Origin: Terasakiella sp. SH-1
Lineage (GTDB): Bacteria > Pseudomonadota > Alphaproteobacteria > Rhodospirillales > Terasakiellaceae
Assembly: GCF_004564135.1 (NCBI RefSeq)
Contig: NZ_CP038255.1
Coordinates: 838,501-902,500, forward strand
Length of the DNA: 64,000 bases
Direction: 5' to 3'
The notes beneath the pieces were generated by a model. The model ran no database searches. It saw only the letters and a list, made by a program, of their open reading frames with translations, and had not been told where the DNA came from. The position numbers were made by a program, and so were the translations under genes. How positions within the stretch are numbered: position 1 is the stretch's first letter; every line of letters starts with the position of its first letter. Below, piece after piece: positions 17,513 through 19,932 of the stretch.

Positions 17513-17830
17513 TCACCCCCACGGCCTGCGCTCTGTGTCGTTCAAGCGATAAAGCGGCAGGCGCGACAGGGTTAAAATCAGAAAAAACGCCACATCGACT
17601 TCCTGATCATCCAAGGCATGATGGATTTGCTTGCGCAAGGCTGCATCCAGATTATCCCCATAGGTTTGGCTGAGTGTTGCCAGATAATCTTGCGGTGTGG
17701 TTGTACGCCACAGGCTGGCCCCGCTTTTGCGTTCATCTGCGGTGGATTTGGTGGGGTCCGTATGGTCGCGCAGGGCGTCGATGATACGGTTAATGAAGAT
17801 GTCGTAATCGTTGTTTTGGTCCAGATGCAT
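17513..17830 (-). CDS. Small hypothetical protein
   Basis: A 105-residue acidic soluble protein with no recognised domain. ATG 17830 has AAAAAGGAAAAG about ten bases upstream; a longer frame (to 17866) would start inside a palindrome and is less likely. The sequence is mostly helical by composition (DIFINRIIDALRDH, DNLDAALRKQIHHALDDQEVD). Its upstream region is an unusual palindrome-rich leader described separately, whose own overlapping frame reads into this gene, so expression may be controlled by that leader (inference). Confidence 0.6.
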   Translation of the reverse strand: MHLDQNNDYDIFINRIIDALRDHTDPTKSTADERKSGASLWRTTTPQDYLATLSQTYGDNLDAALRKQIHHALDDQEVDVAFFLILTLSRLPLYRLNDTERRPWG

Positions 17831-18064
17831 GTCGCTTTTCCTTTTTAAAACTCCATCTCTGGCCACCAGAATTTTCTGGTGACCGGGAGTTTAGCAACAT
17901 GTTAGTAGACATGCGGACCTATTTCCCGAGGGTGTTATATTCAGCCCACTCCCGACCATAGGAAAAGCCTTGCATGCCGTTTTACAGACACACAAAGACC
18001 GCCCAGTCGGGGGCAGTAAACCGCTACTAAAACGTTGCTAAACGTCACCTTGCACCATAAGGTG
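17790..18064 (-). promoter_or_regulatory. Palindrome-rich leader region with overlapping mini-ORFs
   Basis: The 515 bases between 17831 and 18345 hold no ordinary gene. The first part has a CACCAGAA-tt-TTCTGGTG palindrome (17864-17881), a 19-base inverted repeat with two mismatches (17890-17908 TTTAGCAACATGTTAGTAG against 18024-18042), CGGGAG/CTCCCG arms (17884/17949), and a CACCTT/AAGGTG stem (18046-18064). On the minus strand two short frames overlap: ATG 17959 to stop 17891 (22 codons, MVGSGLNITPSGNRSACLL...) and ATG 17912 to stop 17790 (40 codons, containing NSRSPENSGGQRWSF). From memory, near-identical peptides are annotated in leaders of mobile elements in other proteobacteria; this is unverified. 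It may be a structured regulatory RNA or a transferred control region. Confidence 0.45.
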
Positions 18065-18100
18065 AAAAACCGTGGGGAACAAGGGGTAATGAAAGCACAT

Positions 18101-18298
18101 GTCATCCCCAGCTTGACTGGGGATCTTTGTCCGTCTTGAAAAAGGTCCCCGCGTGCGCGAGGACGACGGTTTTATCGACAAGAAGAAACCAGTAACGACG
18201 TGACGGGGGCGTCATCCCCAGCTTGACTGGGGGTCTTTGTCCGTCTTGAAAAAGGTCCCCGCGTGCGCGAGGACGACGGTTTTATCGACAAGAAGAAA
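18101..18298. repeat. 88-bp direct duplication of the dispersed gtcatcc element
   Basis: Bases 18101-18188 and 18211-18298 are identical except for one A/G difference. Each starts with a 67-base copy of the dispersed palindromic element (CCCCAGCTTGACTGGGG hairpin, then TCCCCGCGTGCGCGAGGA hairpin, closed by gtcatcc/ggacgac) and continues for 21 more bases. The spacer between copies is 22 bases. The duplication must be recent. It fills the space just before the Ala/Tyr-tract gene. Confidence 0.9.
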
Positions 18299-18345: not shown

Positions 18346-19932
18346 ATGACACAGGTGCAAAACCGTAAGGAATTTGAAGCGTGGTTGAAGGAACAGGACC
18401 GATGGGTGTCTGTCGCGATGGCTGCGCGGATTGGCTTGCGGGTCTTGCCGAAACTGGGGCCTGTGATTGTACAAGATCCGAAAGAATATAGCGCGACCAT
18501 TGTTTTGCCGGTTTTTCGTGCTATAGCTGTCCCTTGGGTCGCGGGCACAAGACCGACCCAAGGGACAGAGTTTAGAGCCGCCTACGCCGCCGACGCCGCC
18601 GCCGCCGCCTACGCCGCCGTTTACGCCGCCTACGCCGCCGCCGCCGCCTACGCCGCCGTTTACGCCGCCGACGCCGACGCCGACGCCGCCGCCGTTTACG
18701 CCGCCGACGCCGCCGCCGCCGCCTACGCCGCCTACGCCGCCGCCGCCTACGTCAACATCTGGGAAGAGATTCATCTGGATATTGCGGCCATTGAAACGGG
18801 CGCAACGGTTGAACAGTTGATGGAACGCCCCTTATGGGGAAAGATGCCGGATGATGTGAAAGAACATTGGCAAGAGCTGAAACAGGCCCTGTTGGGTCTG
18901 GACGAAAACTGGCAGGTCTGGACCCAATGGTATGAGGATCGTCTTATCAGCGGCCCCAAACCCAATGGCCGCCCGGTCTATTACCCGCTTGAAAAAGAAC
19001 GTGTCTTGATCCCCGATGAAGACTGGGAAAAAGGTCCGGCACATGTCAATGGGCTGATTGCCAGGATTGAAGAAAGATATCGCGGGATTTCTGAACCATC
19101 GGGGCAACAAGCGGCCTCTTTGGAATTTGAAAGAAAGCCCAATGGCAAAATTGGTCGCCAGCCCCTGCAGCCCCAAAAGGCGGAGGATGAAGAACAGGCT
19201 GAGATCTGGCGTGAAGCATGGGAAGGAATACGTTTTTCGTTTGATGATCTGTTGGAGATGCAACCTGCACGAAACCTGCCACGGCTTCAACCCATCTTAA
19301 AAAGATATGATCGGGCCTTGTCACAGGATTTCGACGATATGTCTGTGGTGCAGCTGGGGCAAATGGGGCAACGGCTTTTGGAACTGTTAAACCGTAATAC
19401 GGATATGCTTTCTGATGATGTGACTGGGGAAATATCGGCCTTGCTTGCCAGCCATCATGATTTCATCCGCCAAATGCCGCGCTGGCAGAAGTTTCTGGCT
19501 GCACGCAATGATGATATAGGCAAGGAAGATGTCGCCCTTTCCCTCACCCTTGGTCATCAAAGTATTGAAGAACCCGAGATGCTGGAAAAAGAAGCGGCGG
19601 AAGATGTTGAACTGTCGCTTAAATCAGTGGAAGACGTTCTTGATGAGGGGGAGGAACAGGAGGAGTGGCTGAAGGATAAAAGCCTGCCTGCGGACCATGT
19701 GCGCAGTATGGATAACCTGATGAATGTATCCTGCCAATTGATCATCCGTGAAATCCGTGAAAAAGGCAATGATGTCACCCAGCTTGATGACCCGACCAAG
19801 GACATGTTGATGAAACTGTGTGACGATGAAGTCTTGGTCCAAACCTTGATGGAACAAGGCGCACGCAGTGAATTTGCCTGGTTGATCCCATTGTTGCATT
19901 TTATCCGTACCGCATCAAAGGCGGAGTCTTGA
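18346..19932 (+). CDS. Hypothetical protein with Ala/Tyr/Asp low-complexity tract
   Basis: A 528-residue protein of unknown function. The N-terminal 75 residues (FEAWLKEQDRWVSVAMAARIGLRVLP, VLPVFRAIAVPWVAGT) are followed by a 58-residue tract of only Ala, Tyr, Asp and Val, then a conserved-looking segment with ENWQVWTQWYEDRL (about residue 188-201). I recall that motif from other alphaproteobacterial hypothetical proteins with similar tracts, unverified. The C-terminal half is acidic and helical without membrane segments. AGGGTAG lies upstream of ATG 18346. Flanked on both sides by dispersed repeats, and its tract is far more GC-rich than its surroundings. Confidence 0.75.
   Translation: MTQVQNRKEFEAWLKEQDRWVSVAMAARIGLRVLPKLGPVIVQDPKEYSATIVLPVFRAIAVPWVAGTRPTQGTEFRAAYAADAAAAAYAAVYAAYAAAAAYAAVYAADADADAAAVYAADAAAAAYAAYAAAAYVNIWEEIHLDIAAIETGATVEQLMERPLWGKMPDDVKEHWQELKQALLGLDENWQVWTQWYEDRLISGPKPNGRPVYYPLEKERVLIPDEDWEKGPAHVNGLIARIEERYRGISEPSGQQAASLEFERKPNGKIGRQPLQPQKAEDEEQAEIWREAWEGIRFSFDDLLEMQPARNLPRLQPILKRYDRALSQDFDDMSVVQLGQMGQRLLELLNRNTDMLSDDVTGEISALLASHHDFIRQMPRWQKFLAARNDDIGKEDVALSLTLGHQSIEEPEMLEKEAAEDVELSLKSVEDVLDEGEEQEEWLKDKSLPADHVRSMDNLMNVSCQLIIREIREKGNDVTQLDDPTKDMLMKLCDDEVLVQTLMEQGARSEFAWLIPLLHFIRTASKAES
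18577..18750 (+). repeat. 58-codon GCC/TAC/GAC trinucleotide tract
   Basis: 174 bases made only of GCC (40 copies), TAC (10), GAC (5) and GTT (3). Every alanine codon is GCC, and TAC is the only tyrosine codon. Such codon purity indicates growth by slippage or unequal exchange at DNA level. Sub-units such as gccgccgtttacgccgcc recur. The antisense Gly/Val frame seen opposite it is a by-product. Confidence 0.9.

Follow-up and report, generated by a model that had tools for sequence, protein, structure and literature searches.

The closest described systems are two phage RNAs, C4 and the P4 CI RNA, and one bacterial family, sRNA-Xcc1. According to the portions of PMC5320573 and PMC12197685 available to us, C4 of phages P1 and P7 is a three-stem RNA that is cut from a longer transcript and carries two pairing segments; matching sites lie upstream, and an antirepressor is controlled. 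The P4 CI RNA has its targets, seqA and seqC, up- and downstream, and the outcome is premature termination (PMC4825925, in the available excerpts).

sRNA-Xcc1 is described in Xanthomonas as a discrete 88-nt RNA by RACE (PMC2996969, available in part) and as an sRNA linked to virulence, for which many distant targets are predicted (available parts of PMC2996969 and PMC12189769). The most widespread Xanthomonas integron cassette couples it with symE, the mechanism being unexplained in the available description (PMC12444791), and in the accessible part of one paper, loci for C4 and for sRNA-Xcc1 are listed close together in Xylella. In this literature, as far as its text was available, sRNA-Xcc1 is either an sRNA controlled by HrpG/HrpX or a neighbour of symE; the targets predicted for it are distant, and none in its own leader is named. 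In the accessible text of the open PMC literature, outside of which the 2011 sRNA-Xcc1 paper lies, we found neither a comparison of sRNA-Xcc1 with C4 nor a target assigned to it in a leader.

Here we describe a leader in the window, which is the whole 64,000-nucleotide stretch of Terasakiella sp. SH-1 DNA that was analysed. The leader (window 18066-17820, minus strand) precedes a small gene and, judging from its sequence features, is probably a self-targeting antisense-RNA switch that works like phage C4 and P4 CI RNA.

The RNA domain and its complementary sites

A search with Rfam at curated cut-offs returned nothing in the window. Judged by E-value, the sRNA-Xcc1 model (RF02221) nonetheless aligns over its full length to 17957-17873, scoring 46.4 bits (E 4.3e-7), and because this score is under the gathering score of 53 bits we class the RNA as a distant sRNA-Xcc1 relative and not as a member. 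Genome-wide the model finds four loci at 45.8-48.5 bits (E 2e-7 to 9e-7), none above the cut-off. The consensus fold, a closing stem with two inner hairpins, is full-length in the window RNA (model positions 1-87, two non-standard pairs marked). The C4 model (RF01695) has no match in this genome at E <= 1, and the window RNA, which appears to work like C4, is yet not filed as C4 and is a below-cut-off sRNA-Xcc1 relative. The features of the locus are as follows.

17517..18086, minus strand: whole duplicated unit of leader and gene, ~570 bp, from pairwise alignment of copies; inverted CCCCACGG / CCGTGGGG near its ends
18054..18082, minus strand: promoter-like site TTGTTC-17-TATGGT, weak, 7/12 matches to the sigma-70 consensus
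18024..18043, minus strand: seqA, bipartite upstream target, GTTTAGCAAC (18034-18043) plus TTAGTAG (18024-18030)
17998..18017, minus strand: terminator-like hairpin ACTGCCC-CCGACT-GGGCGGT, followed by CTTTGTGT; U tract poor
17873..17957, minus strand: structured RNA, distantly related to sRNA-Xcc1 (RF02221) and aligned to model positions 1-87
17902..17908, minus strand: apical loop CTACTAA, complementary to TTAGTAG of seqA
17889..17898, minus strand: 3' linker and hairpin foot GTTGCTAAAC, complementary to GTTTAGCAAC of seqA
17889-17908 / 18024-18043: inverted repeat of 20 nt, 90% complementary, arms 115 nt apart
within 17872-17890 / 17948-17966: GGGAG/CTCCC arms
17861..17884 (17861-17871 / 17874-17884), minus strand: near-palindrome forming the hairpin 3' of the RNA, from repeat analysis
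17828..17836, minus strand: candidate seqC AGCGACATG at the start codon, 7 exact pairs in the window copy and more with G-U pairs
17513..17830, minus strand: orphan gene, 105 aa, matching no known family

What appears as a long inverted repeat is a bipartite site (18043-18024) that complements the apical loop and the 3' linker of the RNA. As in C4, both the loop and the linker of the window RNA are pairing segments for which a cognate site lies upstream. RNase P processing of C4 occurs at a GGW 5' end (available part of PMC5320573), and the RNA domain in the window starts 5' with GGU. Across five copies of the unit (see below) the upstream site is the best duplex site of the RNA in 5/5; the start-codon site is second best in three, the window copy included, and third in two, with small margins in two. 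Candidate seqC has 9 exact bases in two other copies. The predicted folding energy of the strand from 18066 to 17825 is -96 kcal/mol; 200 shuffles average -69.5 kcal/mol (sd 4.7), which gives z -5.6, and not one of them is as low. The promoter-like site lies where it does in relatives, at a score that for the window copy taken alone is no better than chance.

The 105-aa protein has no family in Pfam, PHROGs or NCBIfam, and a single relative outside this genome (63% identical) was found among the 60 genomes searched. Its structure model, a weak one (mean pLDDT 66.7), has no PDB match at E <= 0.001.

An earlier note, made from the letters alone, had read this region as a possible control-RNA leader ahead of a small orphan gene, and the analysis supports that reading. 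The palindrome, inverted repeat and GGGAG/CTCCC arms that it reported are present as described, on the minus strand, as are its two mini-ORFs, 17790-17912 (minus), containing NSRSPENSGGQRWSF, and 17891-17995 (minus). The observation is real and exceeds chance, given the fold, the sRNA-Xcc1 match and the four copies in the genome, albeit with limits that cut the unit, which spans ~18086 to 17517 and includes the gene.

Copies of the unit and covariation of the pairing

Three full copies of the unit are present in the genome at different sites; they are 94.5-97% identical and their proteins 98-100% identical. The gene is found at three of the four RF02221 loci, the fourth (C1:1357603) having no intact copy. 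A further unit in a same-genus genome of a sister species (G001) occupies the same site as the window's, with both flanks aligning, and has the same loop and a compensated linker change. Between copies, the apical loop and 3' linker vary together with the site 67-86 nt upstream of the RNA, and the loop/target sets are CTACTAA/TTAGTAG (two copies), CTAACAG/CTGTTAG, CTTTTTA/TAAAAAG and CTAATAG/CTATTAG.

The earlier note had proposed a search for covariation, and it was found. In a set of five copies, four from this genome and one from G001, the 17 loop-plus-linker/target pairs are 100% standard, with 8 changed on both sides and 0 on one. None of 500 shuffles reached the observed paired cells, two-side-changed pairs or cells, or covariation score, and the number of pair types alone was reached by 120/500. 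When the partners were slid by 1 to 3 columns, pairing dropped to 26-48%. Mismatches at paired positions make up 6/17, 8/28 and 12/32 of those among the three full units, and all fall in complete pairs.

Cognate sites and layout in other genomes and viruses

RF02221-related loci were collected at several levels. Matches were present in 6/60 genomes of relatives at E <= 0.01 and in 37/385 genomes of the class at E <= 1e-4 (five matches left out, and L074 and L076 dropped for short upstream DNA), from which the 79 class-level loci were drawn, and in 37/398 at E <= 1e-8 (phylum set). The phylum set gave 61 rows. Of these, 11 were left out and one duplicated a locus of the class set; from the other 49, L237 was dropped for short upstream DNA, leaving 48 loci. 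Viral contigs were taken by core pattern and yielded at least 80 loci with 82 matches, one dropped at an edge and 62 distinct. A cognate site was scored as an exact linker complement followed by a loop complement within 25 nt, inside 200 nt upstream, with the two lengths summed and related loci all weighted equally in the counts.

Summed lengths of at least 13 were found in 76/79 class loci and of at least 15 in 62/79. The corresponding controls were 13.6% and 1.9% for swaps within the same genome (258), 5.1% and 0.6% for swaps between genomes (5904), and 4.6% and 0.3% for shuffled upstream DNA (1580). By the exact test, 54/79 loci had their own partner as the single best match among all 79, and in 50/55 it was strictly best within its genome; by duplex energy the own partner was first in 46/79, in the top three in 57/79 and strictly best within its genome in 49/55. 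Phylum loci reached at least 13 in 42/48 (9.3% swapped) and at least 15 in 29/48 (1.5%). Among the viral matches listed, 49/62 reached at least 13 (12.5% swapped) and 35/62 at least 14 (5.3%), and only 13/62 had their own partner as the single best match, because the viral loci are close kin. Taking the loop by itself, a complement of at least 7 was present at 106/127 loci from 67 genomes, against 15% for swaps and 22% for swaps within genomes, and when partners were permuted within genomes (82 loci, 22 genomes) the observed sum was never reached in 10,000 trials.

An upstream target is likewise present at above-cut-off sRNA-Xcc1 relatives in other genomes and phages, and named phage records with related DNA have hosts such as Escherichia, Vibrio, Mannheimia, Moraxella and Bordetella. 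Two genomes of 1.4 and 1.6 Mb, G152 and G347, each have at least 10 sRNA-Xcc1-like loci (L029, L036, L055-L073, L079 and L081), with a loop/target pair of its own at each locus.

The elements around the RNA recur as well. A promoter-like site (at least 9/12 consensus) lies 5' of the target in 40/118 chromosomal loci and in 40/49 of the viral loci listed (shuffles 8.4% and 11.4%), and a hairpin with a U run lies directly 3' of seqA in 50/107 and 39/49 of those listed (shuffles 7.5% and 8.3%); these shuffles preserve single-base content only. By the criterion used, the terminator element is absent in 57/107 chromosomal loci, and viral relatives have strong terminator-like versions of the window's 17998..18017 hairpin. 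The hairpin 3' of the RNA was found in 86/130 chromosomal loci (43% shuffled) and in 43/62 of the viral loci listed (20% shuffled). Many loci repeat the target over the ribosome-binding site of the next gene: among phylum loci a second copy at that gene's start reaches at least 12 in 22/48 against 7.4% swapped, and at least 10 in 38/48 against 47%, a threshold that is little informative.

The full layout can be seen in Escherichia phage Rac-SA53 before an annotated ant gene, with an RNA of 78.1 bits. The order there is TCGAAACC..TACAAG, the hairpin CCAACCCC..GTGTTGG-ATTTTTT, the RNA, and then TTCGAA..TACAAGAGG..ATG. The existing annotation of Vibrio phage VPBES already includes sRNA-Xcc1, followed by a hypothetical gene and one for a DNA-binding protein. 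Two similar loci of one genome (G608), L232 and L256, lie 1.3 kb apart; one has both targets, and at the other the site at the gene start remains and the upstream one has apparently been lost.

The earlier note had also pointed to nearly identical peptides in the leaders of P4-like satellites and other mobile elements of gammaproteobacteria, and had suggested a widely travelling module. Related RNAs do occur far beyond close kin, so that this check named in the note, like that for covariation, came out in its favour. The near-identity was not supported: when 50,697 phage records were searched with the leader by blastn, the outcome was three weak fragments, the best at E 0.2. What survives of the likeness to P4 satellites is the layout, CI RNA with seqA and seqC, without near-identical peptides or DNA. 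The order seqA, terminator, RNA and seqC is present in many relatives, the window's hairpin having a poor U tract, and the comparison of the window with P4 CI is one of arrangement, the downstream gene here being a chromosomal orphan.

As to C4 itself, one relative (G057) has a C4 RNA whose two pairing segments occupy the same positions and recur both upstream and downstream (TTCACAG, CAAAAGG), and the C4 of another (G022) has downstream sites only and no clear upstream site. Both genomes (L265, L266) carry above-cut-off C4 RNAs together with sRNA-Xcc1-like RNAs at other loci. The c4-a1b1 target model (RF03163) matched the target of 1/20 scanned loci (L036, E 0.0011, below cut-off) and none of the four loci of the window's genome; at E <= 1 it also matches 9/14 control genomes.

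Proteins encoded downstream of the RNA were scanned for 89/106 chromosomal and 43/52 viral ORFs, several Pfam families being possible per protein. The chromosomal proteins included Rha (8), HTH_3 (6), SymE (4), Bro-N (4) and YdaS (3), and the viral ones P22_AR_C (12), AntA (11), Bro-N (10), KilA-N (7) and ORF6N (5). The four SymE proteins among the 89 recall the Xanthomonas cassette (PMC12444791, known here by description). Their loci score 14 (L244, the sole one at 13 or more), 12 (L213 and L253) and 9 (L256) in the exact upstream test. With G-U pairs allowed, L213, L244 and L253 have a two-part upstream duplex; L256 lacks one even so, and pairs over the gene start instead. SymR differs in being encoded opposite symE, whereas the window RNA lies upstream on the same strand as the gene.

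The proposed switch and its alternatives

By analogy with C4 and the CI RNA, the leader could operate as follows. Transcription would start just 5' of seqA and then meet the terminator-like hairpin, and read-through would yield the structured RNA of ~85 nt and then the gene. The RNA would be cut from the leader transcript and, once free, would act in trans on new transcripts, where pairing of their seqA with its apical loop and 3' linker would favour termination at the adjacent hairpin. Pairing at a second site, the translation start of the gene, would block the ribosome. The RNA lies 3' of the terminator-like hairpin, and early termination would therefore also limit its own making; the gene would be kept off while the RNA restrains its own production.

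These elements differ in standing. The predicted RNA domain, the cognate bipartite pairing with its covariation, and the family-wide promoter-like, terminator-like and start-site elements are well supported at the level of sequence. Processing, trans action, termination and repression we infer from the phage systems, and by the same analogy the RNA most likely terminates its own transcript early and blocks translation. Within the window itself, the 7/12 promoter-like match and the poor U tract weigh against reading the leader as a switch.

The main alternative is a purely cis-acting leader, in which seqA and the RNA domain pair within one transcript as a long-range, fold-switching stem. The predicted fold of the strand does contain that stem, and pairing in cis would be expected to leave the same covariation, which cannot separate cis from trans. 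A single cis stem, however, would make superfluous the second target over the start of the next gene (22/48 against 7.4% swapped, and seen at viral loci too). Moreover, sRNA-Xcc1 is a discrete RNA in Xanthomonas, and C4 and the CI RNA act in trans, as the available portions of those reports describe. We regard a purely cis-acting leader as unlikely.

That the unit is a mobile MITE- or REP-like repeat, with hairpins serving its own copying and an incidental likeness to the RNA, would account for the occurrence, at different sites, of three units of ~570 bp that are nearly identical and have inverted CCCCACGG / CCGTGGGG close to their ends. It is nevertheless very improbable: inspection of the flanks by eye showed no target duplication, a large share of the mismatches between copies are compensated loop/target pairs (6/17, 8/28 and 12/32), and the same layout precedes phage antirepressor genes. 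Mobility and regulation need not be mutually exclusive.

Attenuation through a translated leader peptide is the least probable explanation of all, for although 4/5 copies keep all 34 codons of the 17891-17995 frame (TTG start) free of stops and one copy shortens it, conservation of the RNA alone could explain this, the variation is gathered in the pairing bases and not by codon position, neither mini-ORF peptide matches a family in Pfam or PHROGs, and the NSRSPEN frame differs between copies. That frame, which the earlier note took for a conserved peptide, is not kept across the five copies: it enters the gene's frame in two and has other ends in three.

Returning to the self-targeting switch, the occurrence of the same design in many sampled bacteria and prophages suggests a function for a poorly understood RNA family. 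On balance we lean, by a modest margin over even chances, toward viewing sRNA-Xcc1 as another large class, besides C4 itself, of self-targeting antisense switches of the C4 type, one that extends well beyond phages. The family would be a single transferable leader standing ahead of genes for antirepressors, SymE toxins and HTH regulators and ahead of orphan genes, in which loop and target change together within genomes, so that each RNA would fit its own leader best and the switches would be mutually insulated. The co-change of loop and target in the window's genome, between units otherwise 94.5-97% identical, would be part of this same picture. If this is correct, the co-varying target within its own transcript would give sRNA-Xcc1 a concrete and testable function and a possible explanation for the Xanthomonas sRNA-Xcc1/symE cassette, and control of the C4/CI type would extend to genes unlike those of phages. 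Natural sets of matched RNA/target pairs would also be available within single genomes.

The surroundings of the unit have features of their own. An ORF of 528 aa (window 18346-19932) includes a long segment of low complexity made up of Ala, Tyr, Asp and Val, with no Pfam match and one PHROG at E 0.35. An integron attC site was considered and set aside, on a comparison by eye with the core-site consensus. Just upstream of the unit, 18101-18188 and 18211-18298 are direct, hairpin-rich repeats of 88 nt that are 99% identical to each other, and a 67-nt part of this repeat is 94% identical to DNA beside another copy of the unit.
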